Source: Nostoc sp. FACHB-152 (lineage in GTDB: Bacteria; Cyanobacteriota; Cyanobacteriia; Cyanobacteriales; Nostocaceae). From it: 64,000 nt of DNA. Of the stretch, positions 10,582-63,826 are shown piece after piece. The stretch's first letter is position 1, and each line of letters starts with the position of its first letter. The stretch spans positions 1 to 64,000 of the forward strand of contig NZ_JACJRV010000014.1 in NCBI RefSeq assembly GCF_014697475.1, read 5' to 3'. The notes beneath the pieces are model-generated. The model was not told the DNA's origin and did no database searches. It saw nothing but the letters and a program-made list of their open reading frames with translations. The translations under genes were made by a program, and so were the position numbers.

Positions 10582-11442
10582 TTAACCGACATCATCGTGG
10601 GCAAAACGGTTGAATAGGAAGTCTAAGGCATAGTTACGCAGTTTGTAATATTGTGGATCTTCCATAATGCGGGCGCGATCGCGGGGACGAGAAAAGGGAA
10701 TTTCCATGACTTCGCCAATTTTGGCATGAGGGCCATTCGTCATCATCACCAACTTATCTGCTAAAAATAACGCCTCATCAATGTCGTGGGTAATCATCAA
10801 CACTGTGCAGCGATTCTCGTTCCAAATTTTTAGCAGTTCTTCCTGCAATTCTTCTTTAGTAATCGCATCTAACGCCCCAAAAGGTTCATCTAAAATTAGC
10901 ACTTTCGGGCGAATTGCCAACGCACGGGCAATAGAAACACGCTGTCTCATACCACCGGACATTTGCATGGGCTTTTTCTCCATCGCGTCAGCCAGTCCCA
11001 CCATTGCCAAATGGTCGCGGACAATTGCCCGTTTCTCTGCTTCCATTTTGTTGGGGTAAACTGCATTCACAGCTAAGTAGATATTTTCAAATGCAGTCCG
11101 CCAAGGTAAAAGCGCATAGTTTTGAAACACAACCATCCGGTCTGGGCCTGGCTTGGTGATAGGTTCACCTTCGAGTAACACTTGCCCAGAGGTGGGAAAG
11201 TTGAAACCAGAAACCATATTAAGCAGTGTTGATTTACCACAGCCAGAGTGACCAATTACACAAAGAAATTCACCTTGATTGACATTTAGGTTAACGCCAT
11301 CAAGCACAGTGAAGGGGCCTTTCTTGGTGGGATAAACTTTGCTAACGTCTCTGATTTCTAGGAAATGTCTGCTGTTGTCGCTCAGAGTTGGTAATGGTTT
11401 TCTGGAAGTGCTGGTGACGGTGGACAAATTGCGGTTTTGCAT
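10582..11442 (-). CDS. cmpD: ABC importer ATP-binding subunit, CmpD/NrtD type
   Basis: This is the single-domain ATPase of a two-ATPase importer for bicarbonate or nitrate. It has Walker A GHSGCGKST at residues 64-72, a Q-loop in VVFQNYALLPWRTAFEN, the signature MSGGMRQRVSIARAL and Walker B VLILDEPFGALD. It lacks the extra solute-binding domain of its partner CmpC. It is last in the operon and is separated from cmpC by 474 bases holding a 42-bp tandem array, an unusually long gap for this operon. The substrate is inferred from the binding protein, since the ATPases do not distinguish nitrate from bicarbonate systems. The N-terminus has a Ser/Thr-rich lead of about 25 residues before the ABC domain. 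Confidence 0.82.
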   Translation of the reverse strand: MQNRNLSTVTSTSRKPLPTLSDNSRHFLEIRDVSKVYPTKKGPFTVLDGVNLNVNQGEFLCVIGHSGCGKSTLLNMVSGFNFPTSGQVLLEGEPITKPGPDRMVVFQNYALLPWRTAFENIYLAVNAVYPNKMEAEKRAIVRDHLAMVGLADAMEKKPMQMSGGMRQRVSIARALAIRPKVLILDEPFGALDAITKEELQEELLKIWNENRCTVLMITHDIDEALFLADKLVMMTNGPHAKIGEVMEIPFSRPRDRARIMEDPQYYKLRNYALDFLFNRFAHDDVG

Positions 11443-11501
11443 GGCGGTGGATGAAGTATGAAGGGTGAAGTAGATTGGGTGGAACTTAGGTTTTGGTATT
11501 A

Positions 11502-11540
11502 CCCCCCTTATAAAGGGGAGGGAACTCTTTATAAGGGGGG
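11502..11540. repeat. 14-bp perfect inverted repeat
   Basis: CCCCCCTTATAAAG (11502-11515) and CTTTATAAGGGGGG (11527-11540) flank an 11-base loop. It lies in the cmpC-cmpD gap beside the tandem array. The stem has no downstream T-run on the operon strand, so it looks more like a dispersed Nostocales palindrome than a terminator. Confidence 0.8.
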
Positions 11541-11582
11541 ATTTAAGGGGGATAATTTAACAGATGTGTACACCAATGAGTT

Positions 11583-45608: not shown

Positions 45609-46850
45609 TTACTGCGGAGTGAGGAATTTAGCTACTGTTTGTACATCCTTGTCTCCGCGTCCAGAGCAGTTAATCACAATCCGGGGACTACCGCTAAGTT
45701 GGGGACAGAGGGTTTCGAGATAGGCGATCGCATGAGATGTTTCCAATGCTGGGATAATCCCTTCCAAGCGTGACAATCGCTGGAAGGCCTCCAAAGCTTC
45801 TTCATCTGTCACACTAAAATATTCCGCTCGATTAATATCCTTCAAATAGCTGTGTTCTGGCCCCACACCAGGATAATCTAACCCAGCACTAATTGAGTGA
45901 GCCTCCGTGACTTGTCCATCCTCATCTTGCAGTAAATAGCTCATTGCTCCGTGCAGAACACCAACTCGCCCTTTTGTCAAGGTAGCAGCGTGTTTGTCTG
46001 TATTCACACCTTCCCCTGCTGCTTCTACCCCGATTAACCTTACAGATGAATCATTCACAAACTCATAAAATAAACCCATTGCATTGGAACCGCCACCCAC
46101 ACAAGCCATGAGAATATCGGGCAAACCTCCCCATTTTTCTAAAGCTTGGGTGCGAGTTTCTTGACCAATCACTGCATGAAAATCACGTACCATCATCGGG
46201 TAAGGATGTGGCCCGGCTACAGAACCGAGGATATAGTGAGTTGTTTCGACATTCGTCACCCAATCCCGAATCGCTTCGGAAGTAGCATCCTTGAGAGTAC
46301 CTGTACCCGCCGCCACCGGACGCACTTCTGCACCCATCAGCCGCATTCTAAACACGTTCAAAGCTTGACGTTCCATATCGTGAACGCCCATGTAGATCAC
46401 ACATTCCAGCCCAAACCGCGCGCAAACTGTTGCCGTCGCTACTCCATGCTGTCCCGCGCCAGTTTCTGCAATGATGCGTTGCTTACCCATGCGCTTCGCC
46501 AACAACACCTGACCAAGGGCATTATTAATTTTGTGTGCGCCTGTATGATTTAAGTCTTCTCGCTTTAAATAAATTTGTGGCCCACTACCATCAGGACGCG
46601 CATAATGAGTAGTTAGGCGTTCAGCAAAATACAACGGTGTTGCACGTCCTACATAATCTCGCAGCAGTTGTTGTAGTTCTGCTTTAAATTCCTCATCATT
46701 ACGATATTGCTGATACGCTGTTTCGAGTTCAGCTAAAGCAGGCATCAGCGTTTCCGGGACGTACTTACCGCCAAAGCGTCCAAAGCGTCCTTGTGTATCG
46801 GGAACCTGAGTAGTTGTGGAAGAATTTGGGGAAAGGGGAGTAGTAGTCAC
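45609..46850 (-). CDS. trpB: Tryptophan synthase beta subunit
   Basis: TrpB condenses indole with L-serine to form tryptophan using PLP. The 413-residue protein has the Schiff-base Lys K107 in [19 protein letters not shown], the phosphate-binding GGGSNAMG, and the conserved [10 protein letters not shown] and [16 protein letters not shown] stretches. It is of the TrpB1 type that pairs with TrpA, although trpA is not in this window; cyanobacterial trp genes are usually scattered. The N-terminal 18 residues are a Thr/Ser-rich lead. Nothing unusual was seen in the active site. Confidence 0.97.
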
Positions 46851-48745: not shown

Positions 48746-51700
48746 TCAGGATATTTTGAAGTCAGGACGAAGTACGCTAGAGATTGCTTGCACTAATTTC
48801 TTGGCTTCTATTGGCTTAGAGATGTGCTTCTGGAAACCCGCTTTGAGTGCCTGTTGCTGATTCATTTCACCAGCATAGGCAGTCAAGGCGATCGCAGGTA
48901 TTTGTTGACCTTGAGGTAATAAGGTTCTAACTTGCTGGATCAGCATATAGCCATCAACATCGGGCATGGCAATATCACTCAGCAGCACATCGGGTCGGGA
49001 TTGGGTAAGGGCTACAAGTGCCTCGGCTGCTGAAGACACGGCTATAACTGTTGCTCCATACTGTTCTAGAAGCAAAGCAGTGAATTCTCTTGTGTCGGTT
49101 TCATCATCTACTACTAAAACTTTGATATTCCTTAAATCTAAAGATGAGTCCAGCACTGTGCTGTCCTGATTTGTGGCTGGCTGAGTAGATATCAGGGGTA
49201 GCTTAATTGTAAAAGTTGCGCCTTGTCCAATCCCCGGACTTTCAACTTCAATTCTGCCACCATGCAGTTCGACTAGGTAACGCGCGATCGCCAATCCTAA
49301 CCCTAGTCCCCCAAACTTTCTTGTAGTAGCACTATCTTCTTGGCGGAAGTAGTCAAACACGAAGGGAAGAAAATCAGGGCGAATACCCTTGCCTGTATCA
49401 GTAATGGTAATTTTGGCATGAGAACCAACCTGCTCTAACTTAATGTTCACTTGTCCCCTTTCCGGAGTGAACTTGATGGCGTTGGACAGCAGATTCCAAA
49501 TTACTTGTTGCAAACGAGTTGCATCGCCAGAAACTTGCCCAACGTTGGGTTTTAGAAATGCTTGGACTTGGATTGATTTAGCTTGGGCTGCTAACCGCAC
49601 TGTTTCCATTGCGGCTCTAACGATAGCACTCAGATCAACGTTCTCAACATTAAGCCTGATTTTGCCCCGCAGAATTCGGGAGACATCTAATAGATCCTCA
49701 ATCAGTTCTGATTGCAACTGGGCATTACGTTGAATAACTGCCAATCCTTGGGCTAGCCGCGCTTCATCTAGTGTGTGGGTCTGAAGTAGAGTCGCCCAAC
49801 CTAAAATGGGATTGAGGGGCGATCGCAATTCATGAGAAAGCACTGCTAAAAACTCATCTTTGACTCTATTAGCGGCTTGGGCTTCTTCGCGTAATGCTTC
49901 TGCGGCTAACCGTGCTTGTTGTTGTGCTTCGTATAAGTGGGCATTCTCAACTGCGATCGATGCCATATGCGCCAACTGCATTAAAATACCTTCATCTGCG
50001 ACAGTAAACTCACCTTCATATTTATCTGACAGCTGAATCAACCCGATGTTATTTCCATCTCGCCCCATCAACGGTGCGGCTAGCCAACCCCGCAGGGGTG
50101 GGTGATTTTCTGCCTCGTTACTAAAATTTCGCCAAGCAGGATGAGATTCCAGTTGAGCTTGAGTCATTCGCATCGGCTGATTGAGCTGACAAACACAGGC
50201 GTAAACTCCCGACCCATTTGGCTTTGCATCGTAGTCTTGCCACTGAGCATACTTATCAGACAAGTACATAGAATGAATTGCCTGATCCCAGTTTTGGTCA
50301 ATGGTCATACTGGCAACAGATTGATGAGCGCCAATAATCGATGCTGCCTGCTGGGTAATTACTTGTAGCACTTCTTCTACAGAAAGGGCAGAATTGATTG
50401 CCAGTGCGGCTGTTGTCAATCCTTGCAATTGGTTAGCATAGTTTCTTTCACTGGCAAGAAGTTGCTCTCGCTCAAGTTCAGCTAGCCGGCGATCTGTGAT
50501 ATCACGAGAGATACATAACAACCTTTCAACTTGCCCATCGGCTCCTCTCATGGGAGTGATTTTGTTATCCCACCATTTTGGTTCCCCTGTGTGAGTTGGG
50601 CGACAAGCTTGAAAAGTAGCAACTTTGCCGGCTTTAGCGCAAGCGATCGCATTTATTGCGGCTTCTCTGTCTGCTTCTGCCAAAGATTCGATCCATGAAA
50701 GGTTGAGAAACGGCGTGATGTCATCGATGCCTACCAATGTCTGTCCCCCCGAATTCATGTACAGGAGTCGCCCTGATAAATCTAACACCTTGATACAATC
50801 ATCACTACTGTCTAGGATCTGTCGATTGAATTCCTCACTTCGGTGCAAGGCCGCTTCCGCTTGTTTTTGATTCGTAATATCAATTAACAACCCATCCCAC
50901 ACATCTCCTTCTGTGGTTGGTACGGCGCGAGAACTGCCACCAATCCACTTGAGTTTACCTGATGGTGTCATAAACCGCCCTTCCCAACGCCAAGGTAGGA
51001 AGTTCTCGACCGCATAAGCAACGGAACTTTTGAATGACTGCAAATCTTCAGGATGAATCAATTCTAAAAAAGAATTTATATCCTGGATAATGGTTTCCGG
51101 TTCTAATTCCAACAGTTCACGGGAGCCAGAACTCACAAAGTTAAACTGATGGGAAGTACCTGTGCAGGGCGCGTAACGATAAACTACACCCGGTAAATTT
51201 GCTACCAATGCCTCAAACTGAGCTTGGCTGTAATGCGGTGTTGCGCTGTTCGCTTGGTTTTGATGTGGAGTTTTTTGGGCTTTTTGACGCAGATGATTGA
51301 CCTTTTGTAGAGTCGGGGCGGTCAAGGTGGCTAAACGGCTCATCAACCGAGAGTCTTCCGCATCAAACTGTCGTCCCTCCTGGTGTGTCACAATCCAAAA
51401 AGTCCCCAATGGTTGCTCGTTTACATACAGTGGAATTAGCAATTGCTCAACAAGCGGAAACTGTGGATGGTGTAGATAGGTGAAATAACGTTCTGGATAG
51501 GCATAAAGTTGTGGCTGCCGAGATGTAAGTGTGGTGCCACAAGGACTAAAATTACCTGGGGTAGTAGTTTGTTCTAAAAACTCTAATGTACCCGCGATCG
51601 CTACCCAACAAAATTGTAATTCACCATTGGGCGCGGTTTCTAACAAGCTAACTCCAGCACTATCGGCTTGGCATAGATTGATTGTCATCCGTACCAAGAT

Positions 51701-51868
51701 TTTGAGTGTAGATGAAGGCTCATCAACTAGTTGTTGGGCGATGCTATATATAGCTTGGTGTTCAGCGTCTAAATCTGGCTGCTTGGCTGGACGAATAGCC
51801 AGTGCTGCTGTAATTAAGACATCAGCTTCTTCTATAGGAGCCGATGTATTATTGGGGGGAAGACACAT
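48746..51868 (-). CDS. GAF-PAS-PAS-GAF hybrid histidine kinase with receiver
   Basis: The 1040-residue soluble sensor kinase has in order a GAF (about 40-195), a PAS with PAC (215-335; ...WDGLLIDITNQKQAEA), a second PAS (340-460; ...LLCISRDITDRRLAEL), and a second GAF (480-655). A HisKA follows with FLAVLSHELRSPLNPILGW (H679), then a HATPase with ITDTGKGIRPDFLPFVFDYF and GGLGLGLAI, and a C-terminal receiver with VLVVDDETDTRE and VLLSDIAMPDVDGY. All catalytic motifs look intact. No membrane segment is present, so the signal is cytoplasmic. No response regulator gene is adjacent, so its output partner is not evident. Confidence 0.92.
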   Translation of the reverse strand: MCLPPNNTSAPIEEADVLITAALAIRPAKQPDLDAEHQAIYSIAQQLVDEPSSTLKILVRMTINLCQADSAGVSLLETAPNGELQFCWVAIAGTLEFLEQTTTPGNFSPCGTTLTSRQPQLYAYPERYFTYLHHPQFPLVEQLLIPLYVNEQPLGTFWIVTHQEGRQFDAEDSRLMSRLATLTAPTLQKVNHLRQKAQKTPHQNQANSATPHYSQAQFEALVANLPGVVYRYAPCTGTSHQFNFVSSGSRELLELEPETIIQDINSFLELIHPEDLQSFKSSVAYAVENFLPWRWEGRFMTPSGKLKWIGGSSRAVPTTEGDVWDGLLIDITNQKQAEAALHRSEEFNRQILDSSDDCIKVLDLSGRLLYMNSGGQTLVGIDDITPFLNLSWIESLAEADREAAINAIACAKAGKVATFQACRPTHTGEPKWWDNKITPMRGADGQVERLLCISRDITDRRLAELEREQLLASERNYANQLQGLTTAALAINSALSVEEVLQVITQQAASIIGAHQSVASMTIDQNWDQAIHSMYLSDKYAQWQDYDAKPNGSGVYACVCQLNQPMRMTQAQLESHPAWRNFSNEAENHPPLRGWLAAPLMGRDGNNIGLIQLSDKYEGEFTVADEGILMQLAHMASIAVENAHLYEAQQQARLAAEALREEAQAANRVKDEFLAVLSHELRSPLNPILGWATLLQTHTLDEARLAQGLAVIQRNAQLQSELIEDLLDVSRILRGKIRLNVENVDLSAIVRAAMETVRLAAQAKSIQVQAFLKPNVGQVSGDATRLQQVIWNLLSNAIKFTPERGQVNIKLEQVGSHAKITITDTGKGIRPDFLPFVFDYFRQEDSATTRKFGGLGLGLAIARYLVELHGGRIEVESPGIGQGATFTIKLPLISTQPATNQDSTVLDSSLDLRNIKVLVVDDETDTREFTALLLEQYGATVIAVSSAAEALVALTQSRPDVLLSDIAMPDVDGYMLIQQVRTLLPQGQQIPAIALTAYAGEMNQQQALKAGFQKHISKPIEAKKLVQAISSVLRPDFKIS

Positions 51869-52519: not shown

Positions 52520-53362
52520 ATGACTAATCTCAACCTGATTTCAGAATATAAATGCTTTGACGGCCAACTCGGCTTTTACTCTCACTTCTGTGCCACCTGT
52601 AACAGTGAAATGCGCTTTGCTGTCTATCAGCCACCGCAAGCACAGCAAAAACCGCTACCAGTGCTTTATTTTCTTTCTGGGTTAACTTGTACAGAAGAAA
52701 ATTTTATGGTCAAAGCAGGGGCGCAACGTTATGCAGCCGAGTATGGTTTAATTCTGGTGTCACCAGATACTAGCCCACGTCAGACAGGTATTGCGGGTGA
52801 AGATGATGAGTGGGATTTTGGCACAGGCGCAGGTTTTTATGTTGATGCTACCGAAGCACCGTGGCGATCGCACTATCAAATGTATAGTTATGTTGTCCAA
52901 GAATTACCAACTATTATTGCTGCCAACTTTTCTATACAACCTGACAAGCAAGGAATTTTTGGTCATTCAATGGGGGGACATGGGGCGTTAATTTGTGCGA
53001 TGAGAAACCCTCAAATCTTCAAATCAGTATCAGCCTTTGCACCGATTGTTGCACCTATGCGTTGTCCTTGGGGACAGAAAGCCTTCAGTCGTTATTTAGG
53101 CAATAATCAAGAAAATTGGCGTGCCTATGATGCTAGTGAGTTAGTTAGGCAAGTGGGATATCACAGTCCAATTCTCATTGACCAAGGCACTGCGGATAAA
53201 TTTTTACCTCAACAGTTGCTACCAGAAGTATTTGAGCAAGCTTGCGCGGCTGTTGGTCAACCCCTAAAATTACGTTATCAAGCAGGATATGACCACAGCT
53301 ATTATTTTATTTCGAGTTTTATTGCCGACCATATGCGCCACCATGCGATCGCTTTGGCATAA
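52520..53362 (+). CDS. fghA: S-formylglutathione hydrolase (esterase D family)
   Basis: This enzyme hydrolyses S-formylglutathione to formate and glutathione in formaldehyde detoxification. The 280-residue alpha/beta-hydrolase shows LPVLYFLSGLTCTEENFMVKAGAQRYAAE (about 47-75), the nucleophile elbow GHSMGG (Ser150), DQGTADKFLPQQL with the catalytic Asp, and YDHSYYF with the His. SPDTSPRQTGIAGEDDEWDFGTGAGFYVDAT is diagnostic for the family. No formaldehyde dehydrogenase gene lies nearby. It is monocistronic and converges on the NRPS gene through a shared hairpin. Confidence 0.95.
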   Translation: MTNLNLISEYKCFDGQLGFYSHFCATCNSEMRFAVYQPPQAQQKPLPVLYFLSGLTCTEENFMVKAGAQRYAAEYGLILVSPDTSPRQTGIAGEDDEWDFGTGAGFYVDATEAPWRSHYQMYSYVVQELPTIIAANFSIQPDKQGIFGHSMGGHGALICAMRNPQIFKSVSAFAPIVAPMRCPWGQKAFSRYLGNNQENWRAYDASELVRQVGYHSPILIDQGTADKFLPQQLLPEVFEQACAAVGQPLKLRYQAGYDHSYYFISSFIADHMRHHAIALA

Positions 53363-53460: not shown

Positions 53461-56400
53461 CTAGTCTCTAGCCTCTAACCTCTCTCCACCCATAAAACCT
53501 GCAACCTGGTCTAAATGTGCCTGCAATTTTGCAGCCAGCACTTTTACATAAGGTTCTTGAAATAAACCAAGGTGATAACCCGGAATCTGTTCGACATCTA
53601 AGCCGCCAGCTATTAAATCACCCCAGCCGAATAGCGGATCATATTGTACACCAATTGCATCTAGTCGCTCCCGATCATCAGTCCGCATCAGAACTGCTTT
53701 ACCGGGATAAACTCGGAAGTTATATTCACTCACAGCTTGAATATTAACTTCCATAATTTCTACGTGCTGGTCAGTCTCAGATAGTTTTTGGGCAGAGTCT
53801 AGTAAATAAATAGGCTGAATATTTAAAACATCATTGCTTCTTTTTTTGAGATAGTATTTACTTCTGTTGAAACTGTCTCTAGCAACAGTACGCCAAACTT
53901 TCACCCTTTGCCTCAGGTAACTAGGCCCCATTTCTACCAGATTACGGAAATGCTCTCCTATTCGCTGCACAAATGGCAAACGCTGCGTAGACTCTGGTCG
54001 GCAAGAATCTATGAATACTAAAGTAGCGACTTGTTCACCTTGTTGACGGAGTTGTTGTGCCATCTCAAAGGCTACAAATCCACCAAAGGAGTATCCTCCT
54101 AAAAAGTAAGGCCCTTGGGGTTGAATAGCTTTGATTTCTTTAATATAGTGCGCTGCCATATCCTCTAAGCGAGTGATTAGCGGCTGTTTGCCATCTAGCC
54201 CTTGTGGTTGTAGTCCGTAAAATGGTTGGTCTGACCCTAGATGCAGTGCCAATTCCCGGAAACACAATACTTCGCCGCCTAGTCCATGAATGCAGAAAAA
54301 CGGAGGTTTAGAACCATTTGGTTGAATTGCTACTAGAGATGACCAAGTGGGTGGTGATAGCTGTTGTTGGCTGGCTGCCGTCTTTGGTGCCAAAATTTGA
54401 GCTAAAGCTTCAATAGTTCCTGATTGAAACAGAATTGCTAAGGGTAGCTTTACACCAAATGTCTGTTCAATTTGCCAAAACAGTCTGACTGCTAGCAGCG
54501 AATGTCCTCCTAGCTCAAAGAAATTATCTTTCACTCCTATAGGCTGGACACCTAAAACTTCTTGCCAAATCTGCGCGAGTTGATGTTCTACTTGATTGCG
54601 TGGCGCAACAAAGCTGGCTTCTAATTCTTGTCTAGATAATTCTGGTGTCGGTAACGCCCGACGGTCTACTTTCCCGTTAGCAGTCAAGGGCAAGGTATCT
54701 AGTATGGCGAAAGCTGACGGGATCATATACTGCGGCAACTTCCTATCCAGGAAGCGACGCAGCGCGCTAATGCTAAGTGCTGCCTCTGGTTGTGGCACAA
54801 TGTAAGCCACTAAACGTTGATCACCAGGAATATCTTCACGGGCAATCACTACAGCTTGGAACACTTCAGGGTGTTGAGTTAAGGCTGTTTCAATTTCCCC
54901 TGGTTCAATGCGGATGCCACGGATTTTAATTTGATGATCTCGACGACCGAGAATTTCTAGTAAGCCATCTGGACGATAACGACCGCGATCGCCTGTATAG
55001 TAAAGCAAATCCTTTTCATCATTCCTAAACGGATTTGGGACAAACCGCGCCTGATTCTCCTCGCTGGCGTTGATATAGCCCAAACTGCGAAATGGTGTCC
55101 GCAGCACAATTTCCCCAACTTCACCAATACCACATAGTTGGTTGGTGGCTGTCAAAACCAAAGCTTGAGTTTGCGGTAAGGTCAATCCTACAGGCTGTAT
55201 CCCTGGTGTTGGGACAGCAGGCACTCTGTGGTAACACTTGGCGAGGGTTGTTTCTGTTGGGCCGTAAAGATTGACAATTTCACCAGATTGAGGGAATGCC
55301 GCCCGCCAGGATTGTACGAGTGTCTCTTTCAGTGGTTCTCCAGCCAAGAACAACCAACGTAACTTCCGCAAAGATACTTCTACTGGGACATTAACTAACC
55401 AAGACTGCGCCAAGGAAGGCACTGTATGCAGAACCGAAATTTGCTCTCTTTCTAAGTAACGTAGAATTTGCGTCGGTTCCAGGCTATCTTCTGCTTGGGG
55501 AATGCATAAAGTTGCACCACTTGTCAAGGGCAGAAAAATTTCCCTGAGGACGACATCAAAAGAAAGTCCAGTTAATTGAGCAACCCGGTCTTGCAAGCCA
55601 ATGTTAAAGGTCTGCCGTTGCCAGTGGAGGAAGTGTGCCAATCCTTTGTGGCATCCCAGCACACCCTTAGGAACGCCTGTAGTTCCAGAAGTAAAGAAAA
55701 CATAAGCTGCATCGTCTGGTTTGATGCGGGGCAGTTCTCTAGTTTTACTATCTTGAGGCAGATTGATAATTTTTCCTGTCTGGGCATTCACATAGATAAT
55801 TTGCAGAGATTGCCATAACTGATTATCTTGTGGACACTGACCATCCAGACACAGCACATATTTTGCCTTCGCCGCTTGCAGCATGAGTTCATGGCGATAG
55901 CTAGGCAACTTCGGATCTAATGTTAGTAGTACGCCGCCACTCAAGAGTATGCCCAGCATACTGGCAATTAGCCCGAAACTGCGTGTGCCGTAAACAGCTA
56001 CAACATCAGATGGCTCGACTCCGTAAGCCATTAACCCTTGTGCTAGGGTTTGAGCTATGTTGCTTAATTCTCTATAGGTGAAACTGCGATCGCCTTGAGA
56101 TAGTGCAGTTTGTTCTGGGTTGCTGTCTGCCCAAGCTGTGAATAGCGTTGTGACTAATTGGTAGTCTGGTTGCGGCAAAACTACACTTGGATTTGGCAAC
56201 AACCTTTGAGATTGTGGTGTTACCAAAGAATAACTACTGCATACTTGCTCTGGAACTGCAACTATCTGATTAAGTAAATGATGGAATTGATGCAGCATCT
56301 CCATCATTCGCTCTGGTGCAAATAAGTCAGCGTTATAAACTAATTGCAGTTGAATGCCTTGGGTTTGTTCAATGACATACAACGTGATGTCAAACTTAGA

Positions 56401-59400
56401 AGCTGTTTCTACCCCAGTAACGCGTTCGACAGCCAGCCCTGGTAATTCCAGTTGTGTATCACCCAAATTGAGCATATTAAACCACACCTGAAATAGAGGG
56501 TTGCGGCTAGTATCTCGCTCTAATTGCAGTGCTTCTACTATTTTTTCAAAGGGTGTGTCTTGGTGAGCATAGGCTCCTAAGGCAGTTTCTTTTACTTGGG
56601 CTAGTAGGGAAGCAAAACTTGGATCACCCGCAAAGTTAGTCCGTAAAACAACTGTGTTGATGAAAAATCCAATTAGCTGTTCAATTTCAGCTTGATTTCG
56701 ACCAGCAACAGGAGTCCCAATTAAAATATCTTCTTGACCAGTGTAGCGATGCAGTAATGTACCGAAAGCAGCCAATAAGGTCATGAATAATGTTACGCCT
56801 TGTTGACGCGAAACTTTTGTGAGTGACGCGCCCAAAGTCGGCGGTAACATCAAAGATTGACTGGCTCCCCGATAAGTTTGCACTAGAGGCCGTGGTTTAT
56901 CAGTGGGGAGTTCTAAAACTGTCGCCGCCCCAGCTAGCTGATTTTTCCAGTAATCTAGCTGTGTTTCTAGTCGCTTACCAGATAGCCACTGATGTTGCCA
57001 TACGGCAAAATCGGCATATTGGATTGGTAATGGTGGTAATGGGTTAGGTTTACCATCGAGAAAAGCTGCATAAGTTGCTGCTAACTGCTGCCACAAAATA
57101 CCTATTGACCAGCCATCAGAGGCAATGTGGTGCATTGCCAACATCAAGATATATTCCTCGGCGGCGATTTGTACCAAGGTAGCTCGCAGCATGAGGTCTG
57201 ATGTCAGGTTAAAGGGGCGTTTTGCCTCTTGGTTGAGGATTTGTTGTGCTTGTTGCCAAGGATCGCTTGATTGGGATAGTAGGGGCGGTAAGAGCGATCG
57301 CAAATCAATAATCTTGAGTTCAACTGGTCGAGGTAAGCTAATTACCTGTACAGGAATACCATCATCAGAAGTAATAAAAGTAGTTCTTAATGCTTCATGT
57401 TCTACAACAATCGCATCCAGAGATTTTTGTAGAACATCTATATGCAGTTGTCCCTGCAAATGCTGTGTATCAGTAATAATATATGCCGCACTGTCTGGTT
57501 CAAGTTGTTCTAAAAACCAGATGCGCTGTTGGGCAAAGGATAGAGGAAGAGATTCCCGCTTTGCCGGTTGAATAATAGATTGGGTAAGAGTAGTTTCTGT
57601 AATTTGGTGCTGGTCAATTACTTGGGCAAACTGAGCAATTGTCGGACTAGCAAACAAAGATTGTAGAGGAATTTCCACACCAAAAGCTTGGCGCACACGA
57701 GAAATTACTCTAGTCGCCAGCAGAGAATGACCGCCCAATTCAAAAAAGTTGTTGTGAATGCCGACCTGTTTTATCCCCAGCACTTTTGACCAGATAACAG
57801 CTAAGGTTTTTTCTGTATTGCTGCTAGGTGGTACAAAACTAGTTTCCCAGACCAAACTGGCTAAATCTGGTGCTGGTAATGCACGGCGATCTATTTTGCC
57901 GTTAGGGTTTAACGGTAGACTATCCAAAAATACAAATACAGCTGGCACCATATGTTCAGGTAGCTGACTTTGCAAAAAGCCACGCAATTGATGTTGGCTT
58001 GGTGCTGGTTCTGAGTTGGCTACAACATATGCTACAAGACGCTTCTCCCCAGGACTATCTTCTCTAGCAATCACTACAGTCTGCTGCACAGCAGGATGTT
58101 GACTCAGCCGGGCTTCAATTTCTCCTAATTCAATCCGAAAGCCACGAATCTTCACCTGATGATCAATCCGACCCAGAAACTCGATATTTCCATCTGGAAG
58201 ATAACGAACGAAATCACCAGCTTTGTAAAGCCGCTCTCCAGGTTCGCTACTCAACGGGTGAGAAATAAACTTCTGTTTAGTTAATTCTGGATTGTTGAGA
58301 TAGCCTCGCGCTAAACCACGACCACCAATGTAAAGTTCACCTGGTTCACCTTCAGGTACAGGCTGTAAATCTTCATCCAGAATATACACCTGTGTATTGG
58401 CGATCGGACGACCAATCGGAGCAACGTTATAATTAGTTCCGCTTTGACAAACCCAAAAGGTAGTATCAATAGAAACTTCTGTTGGGCCATAGCAATTAAC
58501 TAAAACATTATCTAATTTCAAACGAGCCAAAAATAGCTCTACGAGGTCTATCGGTAAAGCCTCACCACCACTGGTGACGTGTCTTAAACTTTGGCAATTT
58601 TCAATTCCCTCCTCCTCTAAAAGGACGCGCAGGATGGAAGGTACTAAACCAATGACTGTGATTTGCTGCTCAATAATGGTCTGCACAAGGTAAGCAGTAT
58701 CCTTATGCCCACCTGGACGAGCCATAATTAACTGACCCCCAAATGACAAAGGCCAAAATATCTGCCATACAGAAGGGTCAAAGCTAAAAGAAATAGTTTG
58801 TAAGACTTTATCTTGTGGTGTAATTTTAAAAGTTTTTTGCCGCCATTGTAATGTGTTGTAAATACCACAATGGGGAATCATCACACCTTTGGGGTTTCCT
58901 GTAGAACCTGATGTGTAGATAACGTAGCTCAAGTTATCAGGTGTGACTCCACTAACAGGATTTTCTTGACTGTTTTGGGCAATGTCTCCCCAATCTGAGT
59001 CCAGACAAATAACTTTAGTCTGAGAAATAGTTAGATTCTTAGCTAGATTCTTGGTAGTTAAAATTACTGGTGATTGAGTGTCTTCTAAGATATAGGCTAA
59101 ACGCTCTTGAGGATATTCTGGATCTAAGGGTATATAAGCTCCACCTGCTTTGAGAATGCCTAACAGTCCCACTATCATTTCTAAAGAGCGTTCCAGACAA
59201 ATGCCAACTAATACCTCTGGCCCTACTCCTAATTTTTGCAAGTAGTGTGCTAGCTGATTTGCCCGCCGATTTAACTGTTGATAAGTTAATTGCTGATTTC
59301 CAAATACTACAGCAGTGGCATCAGGAGAGCGTTTTACCTGCTCTTCAAACATCTCATGAAGACACAATACAGTCTCCTCCACTTGAGTTACATCAGCCTC

Positions 59401-59472
59401 CGACAGAATTTTGTCAGCATCGGAATTAGTGAAGTTACTGACATCAACGATTTGCTGACAGTCTAAATACAT
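53461..59472 (-). CDS. Two-module non-ribosomal peptide synthetase, A-PCP-C-A-PCP-TE
   Basis: The 2003-residue NRPS should activate and join two residues and release them by thioesterase. Domains: A1 (about 40-540; YTSGSTGNPKG, K526), PCP1 (S583 in GGHSLL), C (640-1080; HHIASDG at 781-787), A2 (1105-1610; FFTSGTTGVPKG, K1601), PCP2 (S1658) and TE (1720-2003; GGYSFGG with S1795). All catalytic motifs look intact and there is no epimerase. Specificity residues read by eye against GrsA are D-P-W-G-V-S-C-I-D-K for A1 and D-V-R-H-F-A-L-L-A-K for A2; I cannot assign either. Starting with an A domain, it needs no upstream donor. Its partner gene lies 82 bases upstream. The product is unknown. Confidence 0.95.
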   Translation of the reverse strand: MYLDCQQIVDVSNFTNSDADKILSEADVTQVEETVLCLHEMFEEQVKRSPDATAVVFGNQQLTYQQLNRRANQLAHYLQKLGVGPEVLVGICLERSLEMIVGLLGILKAGGAYIPLDPEYPQERLAYILEDTQSPVILTTKNLAKNLTISQTKVICLDSDWGDIAQNSQENPVSGVTPDNLSYVIYTSGSTGNPKGVMIPHCGIYNTLQWRQKTFKITPQDKVLQTISFSFDPSVWQIFWPLSFGGQLIMARPGGHKDTAYLVQTIIEQQITVIGLVPSILRVLLEEEGIENCQSLRHVTSGGEALPIDLVELFLARLKLDNVLVNCYGPTEVSIDTTFWVCQSGTNYNVAPIGRPIANTQVYILDEDLQPVPEGEPGELYIGGRGLARGYLNNPELTKQKFISHPLSSEPGERLYKAGDFVRYLPDGNIEFLGRIDHQVKIRGFRIELGEIEARLSQHPAVQQTVVIAREDSPGEKRLVAYVVANSEPAPSQHQLRGFLQSQLPEHMVPAVFVFLDSLPLNPNGKIDRRALPAPDLASLVWETSFVPPSSNTEKTLAVIWSKVLGIKQVGIHNNFFELGGHSLLATRVISRVRQAFGVEIPLQSLFASPTIAQFAQVIDQHQITETTLTQSIIQPAKRESLPLSFAQQRIWFLEQLEPDSAAYIITDTQHLQGQLHIDVLQKSLDAIVVEHEALRTTFITSDDGIPVQVISLPRPVELKIIDLRSLLPPLLSQSSDPWQQAQQILNQEAKRPFNLTSDLMLRATLVQIAAEEYILMLAMHHIASDGWSIGILWQQLAATYAAFLDGKPNPLPPLPIQYADFAVWQHQWLSGKRLETQLDYWKNQLAGAATVLELPTDKPRPLVQTYRGASQSLMLPPTLGASLTKVSRQQGVTLFMTLLAAFGTLLHRYTGQEDILIGTPVAGRNQAEIEQLIGFFINTVVLRTNFAGDPSFASLLAQVKETALGAYAHQDTPFEKIVEALQLERDTSRNPLFQVWFNMLNLGDTQLELPGLAVERVTGVETASKFDITLYVIEQTQGIQLQLVYNADLFAPERMMEMLHQFHHLLNQIVAVPEQVCSSYSLVTPQSQRLLPNPSVVLPQPDYQLVTTLFTAWADSNPEQTALSQGDRSFTYRELSNIAQTLAQGLMAYGVEPSDVVAVYGTRSFGLIASMLGILLSGGVLLTLDPKLPSYRHELMLQAAKAKYVLCLDGQCPQDNQLWQSLQIIYVNAQTGKIINLPQDSKTRELPRIKPDDAAYVFFTSGTTGVPKGVLGCHKGLAHFLHWQRQTFNIGLQDRVAQLTGLSFDVVLREIFLPLTSGATLCIPQAEDSLEPTQILRYLEREQISVLHTVPSLAQSWLVNVPVEVSLRKLRWLFLAGEPLKETLVQSWRAAFPQSGEIVNLYGPTETTLAKCYHRVPAVPTPGIQPVGLTLPQTQALVLTATNQLCGIGEVGEIVLRTPFRSLGYINASEENQARFVPNPFRNDEKDLLYYTGDRGRYRPDGLLEILGRRDHQIKIRGIRIEPGEIETALTQHPEVFQAVVIAREDIPGDQRLVAYIVPQPEAALSISALRRFLDRKLPQYMIPSAFAILDTLPLTANGKVDRRALPTPELSRQELEASFVAPRNQVEHQLAQIWQEVLGVQPIGVKDNFFELGGHSLLAVRLFWQIEQTFGVKLPLAILFQSGTIEALAQILAPKTAASQQQLSPPTWSSLVAIQPNGSKPPFFCIHGLGGEVLCFRELALHLGSDQPFYGLQPQGLDGKQPLITRLEDMAAHYIKEIKAIQPQGPYFLGGYSFGGFVAFEMAQQLRQQGEQVATLVFIDSCRPESTQRLPFVQRIGEHFRNLVEMGPSYLRQRVKVWRTVARDSFNRSKYYLKKRSNDVLNIQPIYLLDSAQKLSETDQHVEIMEVNIQAVSEYNFRVYPGKAVLMRTDDRERLDAIGVQYDPLFGWGDLIAGGLDVEQIPGYHLGLFQEPYVKVLAAKLQAHLDQVAGFMGGERLEARD

Positions 59473-59554
59473 ATTGCTTAATTTTGAATAAGTAGTTAGT
59501 TACACAAAGCTTAAAGTCAGCTATCTATACGGATGCTTATAGATATGACAGATT

Positions 59555-60211
59555 TTAGTTCACACTGGCTTTGGCTAAAGCCAAGGCTTGACTAGCTTTA
59601 GAGAAGTTATCTTCATTTCTAAATTGATCTTTAAAGCGTTTCAAATAAGCTTCTAAATATCTCACTCGACAATGTAAATCCTCTGCACTTATCAAAAAAG
59701 GCAGGTCAGATTCAACCATAAACCGAATAGCCAGTATTGGAGTTGGGCTACGCAGAGGACGGAAGTTAGGGTTGTGCAATCCTGGAGTTTGATTATGTTT
59801 GTGAAATTCGCCTAACATTAGCCCTGACTCAACAAATAAAGGCTTCAGTTGTTTTTGTACATTGTCGATTAATCTTGGTGCATTCTCGTGAGTTACCTCA
59901 GGAAAAATGAGAAGTATAGCTTTATAAATTGCTTCTTCTGGCTCTGTTGGCTCTAACTCTAGAAAAGCATTTAAATACTTTAATACTATATTGGCAATTT
60001 CTTGAGTATCTAAATTTTTAGAGCGAATAACTTTTAATCTAATACTGTTTAAATTTAATGCTTTAGGCATATATGGGCAAACAGGCCCAATTCTCCCCAA
60101 ATCAGTATGGGGTTTCGCTAAGGAGCTTCTCAACCAATTCCAAGTTTCAACTAAATAGGGTATATCTTGCTGAATCTGATGAATATCATCAGGTGTATAG
60201 AGTTGCGCCAT
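59555..60211 (-). CDS. Conserved protein in NRPS operon, DUF6875-like
   Basis: The 218-residue protein has no signal peptide or membrane span. Two blocks look strongly conserved: GRIGPVCPYMPKAL (about 39-52), and EFHKHNQTPGLHNPNFRPLRSPTPILAIRFMVESDLPFLIS (134-174), rich in His, Asn and Arg as in an active site. It resembles proteins that I recall as DUF6875, often found beside biosynthetic genes; the name needs checking. Located 82 bases upstream of the NRPS on the same strand, it is probably first in a two-gene operon. It could supply or modify a substrate or the carrier-bound intermediate. That role is inference. Confidence 0.7.
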   Translation of the reverse strand: MAQLYTPDDIHQIQQDIPYLVETWNWLRSSLAKPHTDLGRIGPVCPYMPKALNLNSIRLKVIRSKNLDTQEIANIVLKYLNAFLELEPTEPEEAIYKAILLIFPEVTHENAPRLIDNVQKQLKPLFVESGLMLGEFHKHNQTPGLHNPNFRPLRSPTPILAIRFMVESDLPFLISAEDLHCRVRYLEAYLKRFKDQFRNEDNFSKASQALALAKASVN

Positions 60212-61612: not shown

Positions 61613-63826
61613 ATGGCTAACAGCAGTGCAAAGAGCGCATCGCTACGTTTAAGAGAAAAGTTACCTTTTCCGCTCAAGCGTTTAGCAGATTTGGCTTATA
61701 ACTACTGGTGGAGTTGGACAAGCGATCGCATATCCTTATTTCAAACTATCGATCCTCAAGAATGGGAACGTTGTGGGCATAACCCAGTAGCAATATTAGA
61801 GTCAGCCAGTTACGAACGCCTCACCCAATTGGCGGAAGACCCACTATACCTAAAGCAGATTTCGGCCTTAGCACAAGAGTTTGACCAATACATGGCACAA
61901 AAAGATACTTGGGTGAGTCGAGTTGCACCGCAAGTGTCTGCTGAACACCCCATCGCTTATTTCTGTGCCGAATTTGGCATCCATGAATCTTTACCCGTTT
62001 ACTCTGGCGGCTTGGGGATTTTAGCGGGAGATCACCTCAAATCATCATCAGATTTGGGTGTACCAATGGTTGGCGTGGGCTTATTGTATCGCCAAGGTTA
62101 CTTTCGCCAACGTTTAAATCGTCAAGGTTGGCAAGAAGATTATTACTTAGATAATCCTTTTCACAGAATGCCCTTAGAGTTAATTCAGAACGAACAAGGG
62201 CAACCACTTACTATCCAATTAGAAATTCGCCAACGGCAAGTAAAAGTCCAAATTTGGAAAGTGCAAGTTGGGCGAGTAACATTATATTTACTAGATAGCG
62301 ATCGCGAAGACAATGATCCTATCGACCGTTGGCTGACAGGACACTTGTATGGTGGTAACTTAGAAACCCGCATTGCCCAAGAAGTCGTTTTAGGAATTGG
62401 TGGTGTCCGCGCCTTAACAGCCTTGGGAATTAAACCTGCTGTTCATCACCTCAACGAAGGTCATGCTGCGTTCTGTACCCTAGAAATTGCCCGTCAAGAA
62501 ATCGAACGGACAGGTAAATCCTTCTACGATATTGAAGCCAGCGTGCGGAACAGTTGTGTATTCACCACCCACACCCCCGTTCCCGCAGGTCACGATGTCT
62601 TCTCACCTGATTTAATTGACTCTTTCTTTGCCCACTACTGGCCACAATTGCGGTTGTCCCGCGAACAATTTTTAGCCTTAGGGGCGCGGCGACTCGGCGA
62701 CCCTTGGGAACCCTTTGGCATGACAGTGTTAGCATTGCGGATGTGTCGTGCTTGCAACGGTGTCAGCGAATTGCACGGCAAAGTCTCCCGTAAGATGTGG
62801 ACTGTTCTTTATCCCCATCGCACAGAAGACAGCGTACCCATTGGTTACATTACTAATGGTGTTCATGCACCAACTTGGACTGCACCTTTAATGGCTGATT
62901 TGTATAACCAGTATTTAGGCGAAGACTGGAAAACTCATGCAGTTGACCCGCAGATGTGGGCTAAAGTTGACGACATTCCCAACGAAGAATTATGGGCAAG
63001 ACATCAAATCCTCAAAGAAAGATTGATTGCCTACACTCGCTATAAAATTAAAAAATCACGAGAACATCGGGGTGAAGATCATCAACACATTCACGCTGTT
63101 GATAGCTTGCTTGACCCGAATGTACTCACAATTGGATTTGCCCGACGCTTCAGCCCTTACAAACGCGGTGATCTGATTTTACGGGATGCGGAACGAGCAT
63201 TGAAGATTTTTGGCAATCCTCAGCGACCAGTCCAAATTGTGTTTGCGGGTAAAGCACACCCAGCCGATGAAGAAGGTAAACGCATTATCCAGCGTTTGAT
63301 GGAGTGGTGTCACAATTCCGGCATTGTTAACCGCGTGGCTTTTATTGAAGATTACGACATCTACACCGGACAAAAACTCGTGCAAGGCGTGGATGTTTGG
63401 TTAAATAATCCTCGTCGTCCCTTAGAAGCATCTGGTACAAGTGGGCAGAAAGTATGCTTTAATGGCGGAATTAATTGCAGCGTTTTAGATGGTTGGTGGT
63501 GTGAAGGCTACCAAGCTGATGCAGATGGCAAAGGCACTAATGGTTGGGCAATTGGTGAAGATGCTCACACAAGCGATCAAGAATTGCAAGACGGCATAGA
63601 TTCTCAATCACTGTATCATTTGTTAGAGTCAGAAATTGTGCCTCTGTACTATGACCAAGATGAGCAAGGTATTCCTCACCGTTGGTTACAGATGATGAAA
63701 GCATCAATTAAGACCAATGCACCATTGTTCAATACTGACAGAATGATTGCTGATTACGTTTCACAGGTGTATGTCCCAGAAATTGCTGCCCGTGTTGAAC
63801 CAATTTTGGCTAAGATTCTGCTTTAA
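61613..63826 (+). CDS. glgP: Alpha-glucan (glycogen) phosphorylase, GT35
   Basis: This PLP-dependent enzyme releases glucose-1-phosphate from glycogen. The 737-residue sequence belongs to the shorter bacterial subgroup, which lacks the regulatory N-terminus of muscle-type phosphorylase. Landmarks are YFCAEFGIHESLPVYSGGLGILAGDHLKSSSDLGVPMVGVGLLY (about 122-166), HHLNEGHAAF, FTTHTPVPAGHDVF, and RRPLEASGTSGQKVCFNGGINCSVLDGWW, with the PLP-binding Lys K613. A strong terminator follows. Glycogen breakdown at night fuels respiration in cyanobacteria, and heterocyst-formers often carry several phosphorylases. It is monocistronic behind a 1.4-kb upstream region. Confidence 0.95.
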   Translation: MANSSAKSASLRLREKLPFPLKRLADLAYNYWWSWTSDRISLFQTIDPQEWERCGHNPVAILESASYERLTQLAEDPLYLKQISALAQEFDQYMAQKDTWVSRVAPQVSAEHPIAYFCAEFGIHESLPVYSGGLGILAGDHLKSSSDLGVPMVGVGLLYRQGYFRQRLNRQGWQEDYYLDNPFHRMPLELIQNEQGQPLTIQLEIRQRQVKVQIWKVQVGRVTLYLLDSDREDNDPIDRWLTGHLYGGNLETRIAQEVVLGIGGVRALTALGIKPAVHHLNEGHAAFCTLEIARQEIERTGKSFYDIEASVRNSCVFTTHTPVPAGHDVFSPDLIDSFFAHYWPQLRLSREQFLALGARRLGDPWEPFGMTVLALRMCRACNGVSELHGKVSRKMWTVLYPHRTEDSVPIGYITNGVHAPTWTAPLMADLYNQYLGEDWKTHAVDPQMWAKVDDIPNEELWARHQILKERLIAYTRYKIKKSREHRGEDHQHIHAVDSLLDPNVLTIGFARRFSPYKRGDLILRDAERALKIFGNPQRPVQIVFAGKAHPADEEGKRIIQRLMEWCHNSGIVNRVAFIEDYDIYTGQKLVQGVDVWLNNPRRPLEASGTSGQKVCFNGGINCSVLDGWWCEGYQADADGKGTNGWAIGEDAHTSDQELQDGIDSQSLYHLLESEIVPLYYDQDEQGIPHRWLQMMKASIKTNAPLFNTDRMIADYVSQVYVPEIAARVEPILAKILL

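Follow-up and report, generated by a model that had tools for sequence, protein, structure and literature searches.

In systems of the NikQ/NovI type, a P450 is combined with an A-PCP unit and serves as a dedicated amino-acid oxygenase. AglA, a member of the YqcI/YcgG family, is a thiolate-heme hydroxylase that contains a four-stranded sheet, uses Cys44 as its iron ligand, and hydroxylates an arginine derivative, a soluble small molecule, according to PMC12866846. The DUF6875 proteins are reported in PMC13307353 to bind heme and to be capable of L-Trp oxidations, and these heme/Trp oxidases are named “cytochrome P422”. The same source proposes ZigI of zigralone biosynthesis as a C-7 hydroxylase, and the deletion of either zigI or the methyltransferase gene zigH leads to the demethoxylated product; the only activity found reported there for the family is on L-Trp or a Trp-derived indole.

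The window analyzed here, which is the whole stretch of 64,000 nucleotides from Nostoc sp. FACHB-152, belongs to a genome of 8.6 Mb in 190 contigs and carries a DUF6875 gene beside an NRPS gene (Table 1). The conserved unit at this locus is DUF6875 together with the first adenylation domain of the NRPS (A1), not the dipeptide, and the two form a specific pair whose oxygenase–adenylation chemistry is predicted.

Table 1. Features of the locus, in window positions.
Feature	Position	Strand	Basis
Two-module NRPS, A-PCP-C-A-PCP-TE, 2003 aa	53461-59472	-	ORF, Pfam, and motifs
A1 adenylation domain, code DPWGVSCIDK; the part tracking DUF6875 across genomes	57877..59349	-	Pfam and code reading
PCP1 (approximate limits)	57619..57810	-	Pfam PP-binding and GGHSL motif
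Condensation domain	56197..57558	-	PF00668
A2 adenylation domain, code DVRHLLLLAK (approximate limits)	54652..56091	-	Pfam and code reading
PCP2	54394..54582	-	PF00550, residues 1631-1693
Thioesterase domain (3' limit approximate)	53518..54303	-	PF00975 from residue 1724
Gap between partner and NRPS, 82 bases	59473..59554	-	Same strand for both genes
Partner of the DUF6875 family, 218 aa; predicted to be a thiolate-heme oxygenase of amino acids	59555-60211	-	PF21780, AlphaFold2, Foldseek, invariant columns
S-formylglutathione hydrolase	52520-53362	+	Neighbor
Hybrid histidine kinase	48746-51868	-	Neighbor
Alpha-glucan phosphorylase	61613-63826	+	Neighbor

The NRPS gene and its DUF6875 partner

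Pfam detects a pair of A domains, a pair of PCP domains, and a single C and a single TE domain in the NRPS, and the order A-PCP-C-A-PCP-TE, read from the Pfam stretches shown together with protein motifs, makes the enzyme dimodular. The core motifs HHxxxDG, GGHSL (twice), and GYSFGG are legible. This architecture with intact motifs had been put forward in the original prediction, which was also exact in its coordinates, strand, 82-base gap, and 218-residue partner. The DUF6875 gene is the upstream member of the pair, the NRPS follows on the same strand, and both are probably carried on one transcript; among the best 80 of 240 relatives, 30 loci have the same-strand downstream order, and 11 of these show gaps of 0–26 bases. 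The flanking genes are housekeeping or regulatory. Since these neighbors are a hydrolase, a histidine kinase, and a phosphorylase, no transporter, MbtH, or tailoring gene adjoins the pair in the window, as had been claimed, and the one MbtH match and two ACPS/phosphopantetheinyl-transferase matches found genome-wide are all on contigs other than that of the window. An alpha-glucan phosphorylase near DUF6875 is common to 7 of 21 loci, possibly reflecting an ancestral common site. A Lys2-like assignment of A2 (NCBIfam) was rejected as too weak, its 282.7 bits falling short of the 1030-bit cut-off; the same model gave A1 267.2 bits.

The partner matches DUF6875 (PF21780) in Pfam with an E-value of 6.9e-64 and 215.6 bits against a curated cut-off of 24.5. 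It can no longer be called an unknown partner, as it was originally, because this family has a published heme/tryptophan assignment (PMC13307353). Cys45 is invariant in three alignments (14, 13, and 9 sequences) and is the sole invariant cysteine or histidine in the most divergent of them, which comprises nine DUF6875 proteins, including those from Streptomyces and Rhizobium. Across these nine proteins, Arg40, Asn147, and Arg163 are invariant alongside Cys45, as are Met132 and Tyr189, and there is no invariant histidine; the His/Asn/Arg-rich core noted originally therefore holds among cyanobacteria, but its histidines do not persist in the divergent set. Cys45 provides the conserved candidate heme ligand expected of a P422-type protein and is probably the iron ligand, although it is not the only conceivable one, because Met132 and Tyr189 are invariant too.

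A sequence search of the partner against the PDB returned chance-level matches only, with AglA absent, and was dropped as an uninformative route, so that a fold search was needed. The AlphaFold2 model of the window protein (pLDDT 88, pTM 0.84) has four strands (residues 57–61, 98–102, 131–136, and 159–164) flanked by helices, in agreement with the description of AglA. When this model was compared with the PDB by Foldseek, the top four matches were AglA (E 0.020–0.075, probability 0.97–0.89, TM 0.43–0.46, rmsd 8.4–9.1), and the following listed matches had probabilities of at most 0.57; taken alone this comparison is weak, because nothing reached E ≤ 0.001. For a Streptomyces lycii relative that is 43% identical to the window protein (model pLDDT 88.3), the five best matches were likewise AglA (E 8.4e-5 to 6.1e-4, probability 1.00, TM 0.40–0.45), and the match after these had an E-value of 0.16. 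The YqcI/YcgG family is absent from the Pfam matches of the window protein at E ≤ 1. Cys45 may stand in the place of AglA Cys44.

Co-occurrence of DUF6875 and A1

The partnership between DUF6875 and A1 is specific. At a threshold of E ≤ 0.001, DUF6875 is present in 104 of the 217 genomes of the window's family, and the A1 motif, searched as a DNA pattern for the segment FDPSVWQ[IVL]FWP, in 91 of the 217 (about 42%), all 91 with DUF6875. The motif is thus found in 91 of 104 DUF6875-positive genomes versus 0 of 113 DUF6875-negative genomes (Fisher 1.8e-47, a value that ignores kinship). A control with one generic A-domain motif (55 of 104 versus 27 of 113) is also skewed toward DUF6875-positive genomes, but far less than the A1 motif. 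In none of the nine genera that are mixed for DUF6875 does any genome carry the A1 motif and lack DUF6875, and the window's genus (n = 11) has three genomes with both and eight with neither. Thirteen DUF6875-positive genomes lack the exact A1 pattern; in the three that were read, as named records matched by their coordinates (G028, the same as L096; G042, L116; and G086, L157), the A1 code is present and one motif residue is changed in each. A lack of co-occurrence had originally been named as grounds for refutation; the co-occurrence is in fact strong, and it supports a link between the partner and the NRPS, in which the partner most likely forms or alters a building block. Because the partner looks like an unusual heme oxygenase and keeps company with one particular adenylation domain in related cyanobacteria, the two probably make and load an oxidized aromatic building block of a small molecule.

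Of the 91 both-positive genomes, 40 have the gene and the motif less than 10 kb apart, the largest distance being 5.5 kb. Gene and motif are apart in the other 51, with 14 on the same contig at a distance of at least 0.4 Mb and 37 on different contigs, placements of which the latter may come partly from broken assemblies; these 51 consist of G002, G003, G011, and every one of the 48 both-positive genomes of g38, which is the largest genus and of the Nostoc type. The DUF6875 and A1 distances are correlated (r 0.74, 34 pairs, 0 of 5000 permutations, with one separated pair dropped for its short A1 frame), a correlation confounded by the species tree, which alone could give it.

Loci were fetched for 20 of the 29 other genomes with the highest DUF6875 scores, several with a nearby contig end being left out. 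With the window included, 16 of 21 loci have the NRPS 3' of DUF6875 in the same orientation, and the retention of this order in 15 of the 20 fetched relatives, together with the clear family match of the partner, puts the pair beyond chance; the other five loci, all from g38, have DUF6875 and no NRPS in the locus. A pattern scan of GTDB species genomes gave 240 relatives, and the analysis continued with the 80 best. Among these 80, the NRPS is next to DUF6875 in 39, in three arrangements: downstream on the same strand (30), upstream on the same strand (1), and divergent (8, in Oculatella, Stenomitos, Elainella, Nodosilinea, Tildeniella, and three others). It is farther off in one locus; another 39 loci, mostly from Nostoc and some of them ending soon after the gene, showed no NRPS, and the remaining one is a Streptomyces locus in which the DUF6875 gene was not called. 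DUF6875 is rare beyond the family in a phylum sample: it occurs in 11 of 386 genomes, all 11 within the window's family and the window genome among them, and the GTDB scan also places it in cyanobacteria beyond this family.

In L060 (g38), the NRPS is accompanied by a DUF6875 remnant of 111 aa at 11229–11564, and weak DUF6875 pieces lie near the A1-motif site in G091, G117, G128, and G179, with a full copy elsewhere in each genome, suggesting that the neighboring copy has decayed in these cases. Where the NRPS is parted from DUF6875 (L051–L063, in g38 and g3), it often adjoins recurring gene clusters; in L059, its neighbors are exopolysaccharide genes, encoding a sugar transferase, a polysaccharide synthesis protein, a protein of the O-antigen ligase type, and a glycosyltransferase.

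The A1 pocket code and the variable rest of the NRPS

Ten pocket positions were read in each A domain, at sites placed by what we take to be the relevant motifs. Wherever it could be read beside DUF6875, the A1 code follows DPW[AGT][VIMF][CST][CV]IDK, and the other modules vary. In the first set, DPW[AGT][VIF][CST][CV]IDK was found in all 36 of the 36 loci holding an A1-type domain, the last position being left unread in L034 and L051, where the domain is cut. In the named set, DPW[AG][VIM][CST][CV]IDK was found in 21 of the 23 loci read out of 80, the exceptions being L121, with a distant gene and another code, and L156, with no readable domain; some loci are duplicates, the same genome being listed twice with different names. 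For 20 loci, the search pattern itself contained the first three residues of the code, which was not so for the loci found through DUF6875 alone. The code stays constant even though the identity of the whole A1 domain drops to 50%.

The rest of the enzyme is far less uniform. A-PCP-TE proteins without a C domain, checked with Pfam, occur in L040, L142, L159, L150, and L065, and A1 is the second A domain in some loci (for example, L048, L067, L070, L106, and L157). Two-module relatives carry either the A2 code DVRH(L/V/I)(L/F)L(L/M)AK, as in the window, or others, which presumably resemble Gly or Ser codes, and the codes of the longer enzymes presumably resemble those for Pro, Val, or Asn. The original prediction had named a two-residue peptide or a derivative such as a diketopiperazine as the product; as the essence of the system this is not supported, because the NRPS ranges from A-PCP-TE to multi-module forms and DUF6875 with A1 is constant.

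Predicted function of the pair and comparison with known systems

We favor, with moderate confidence, a reading in which the DUF6875 protein is a monooxygenase with Cys45 as its ligand that oxidizes an aromatic amino acid, likely tryptophan, after which A1 loads the product for use by the NRPS. The 218-residue protein would be a small non-P450 heme monooxygenase that acts on the aromatic amino acid in its free (or carrier-bound) form, with hydroxylation of L-tryptophan as the most likely reaction. A1 would then select the oxidized residue as its dedicated substrate and load it onto PCP1, the C domain of the window NRPS would join it to a second residue loaded by A2, and the TE domain would release a dipeptide or its cyclized form. 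In relatives, the oxygenase and A1 would feed a one-module A-PCP-TE enzyme or longer synthetases, and because the same cassette would serve both, the constant part would be the building block. The one-module A-PCP-TE form may be the ancestral use of the cassette, releasing or dimerizing the residue.

Tryptophan is favored because of the reported activity of the family together with the Trp-linked neighborhoods of two Streptomyces relatives. In one, a Trp halogenase domain is encoded less than 5 kb from DUF6875 in the same orientation, and the other adjoins genes for indole-glycerol-phosphate synthase and phosphoribosylanthranilate isomerase, as well as trpA. Beyond the cyanobacteria, DUF6875 was seen here through plasmids and one Streptomyces contig. 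Among 61 matching plasmid records, 42 are from Rhizobium, and five plasmid neighborhoods were inspected. Trp-synthesis genes are present in one of these, which is that of the second Streptomyces relative just described; another contains an aminotransferase together with a multicopper oxidase, two show nothing evidently linked, and the fifth lacks annotation. Four aligned plasmid proteins, the Trp-linked one among them, share only 33–36% identity with the window protein, and their substrates may differ. In Rhizobium etli p42d (L164, 7836–8531), DUF6875 lies near nodD2/nodD3. The window itself has trpB at 45609–46850, about 7 kb from the NRPS; this was rejected as evidence for tryptophan, since the genome has a second full trpB and, of 107 loci, only L031/L082 (one genome, the closest relative) have trpB beside the pair.

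It is rather unlikely that a DUF6875 heme oxygenase supplies A1 with an oxidized residue other than Trp, such as Tyr, Phe, or a basic residue. Such a substrate would suit the best Foldseek match, AglA, with its arginine derivative, as well as the Asp at the ninth position of an A1 code that, to our knowledge, equals no Trp code. However, A1 shares five of its ten code positions with the GrsA Phe code (DAWTIAAICK), and a Trp code presumably also has an acidic residue at the ninth position, a likeness that is suggestive only. The two Streptomyces neighborhoods also speak against a non-Trp substrate, as does the sole family activity found reported (PMC13307353). An attempt to name the A1 substrate from its code failed, as a literature text search linking DPWG to an adenylation domain gave no match.

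A doubtful alternative is that DUF6875 acts after loading by A1, on the PCP1-bound residue and not on a free building block. NikP1/NikP2 are load-modify-release units, and the minimal A-PCP-TE enzymes without a C domain resemble such units. However, action on PCP1 would by itself give no reason for the one special pocket code of A1 in the loci read, and the characterized AglA takes a soluble small molecule (PMC12866846). It is very improbable that the two genes are neighbors or fellow travelers by shared ancestry only, with separate functions. The 39 of the best 80 loci without an NRPS, the non-independence of counts within one family, and the confounded distance correlation would fit that explanation, but the A1 motif never occurs without DUF6875 in the nine mixed genera, all 48 both-positive g38 genomes retain both though these lie more than 10 kb or contigs apart, and three neighboring arrangements retain the same A1 partner.

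The favored oxygenase-and-loading scheme turns a gene beside an orphan NRPS into a testable enzyme–domain pair, which 91 of the 217 searched genomes of the family carry (about 42%). If correct, it would assign a first substrate to adenylation codes of the DPWxxxCIDK type and bring non-P450 heme oxygenases into the synthesis of cyanobacterial peptides. It would also predict a common hidden metabolite class in Nostoc, Calothrix, and relatives. Whether the pair is also a portable cassette, mainly of heterocystous cyanobacteria, in which a small non-P450 thiolate-heme monooxygenase makes one oxidized Trp and a dedicated A domain, bearing a code so far unassigned, passes it into a series of peptides of one to several residues, is evenly balanced in our judgment; such a cassette would mean that A1 has a new specificity and that a family of metabolites has gone unrecognized. 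Among the papers listed by literature text searches, none was on a DUF6875–A1 pair; a family preprint outside their scope (bioRxiv 2025.12.11.692455) may describe it.

Among the described systems, ZigI and the DUF6875 “P422” oxidases (PMC13307353) belong to the same Pfam family, which has Trp-linked relatives in Streptomyces, whereas the partners of ZigI are P450s, a methyltransferase, and terpene enzymes, and the partner in the window is an NRPS A domain. AglA of the YqcI/YcgG family is the best PDB fold match for two DUF6875 models and has a Cys at a similar position, but the TM scores are 0.40–0.46, the identity to the DUF6875 models is 9–14%, there is no Pfam YqcI/YcgG match, and its arginine-derived substrate is unlike that favored for the DUF6875 protein. 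The NikQ/NovI type likewise obtains an unusual residue by pairing an oxygenase with a single adenylation domain; in contrast, the oxygenase here, at about 220 aa, is predicted to be a heme enzyme other than a P450, and the pair is found with several NRPS architectures.
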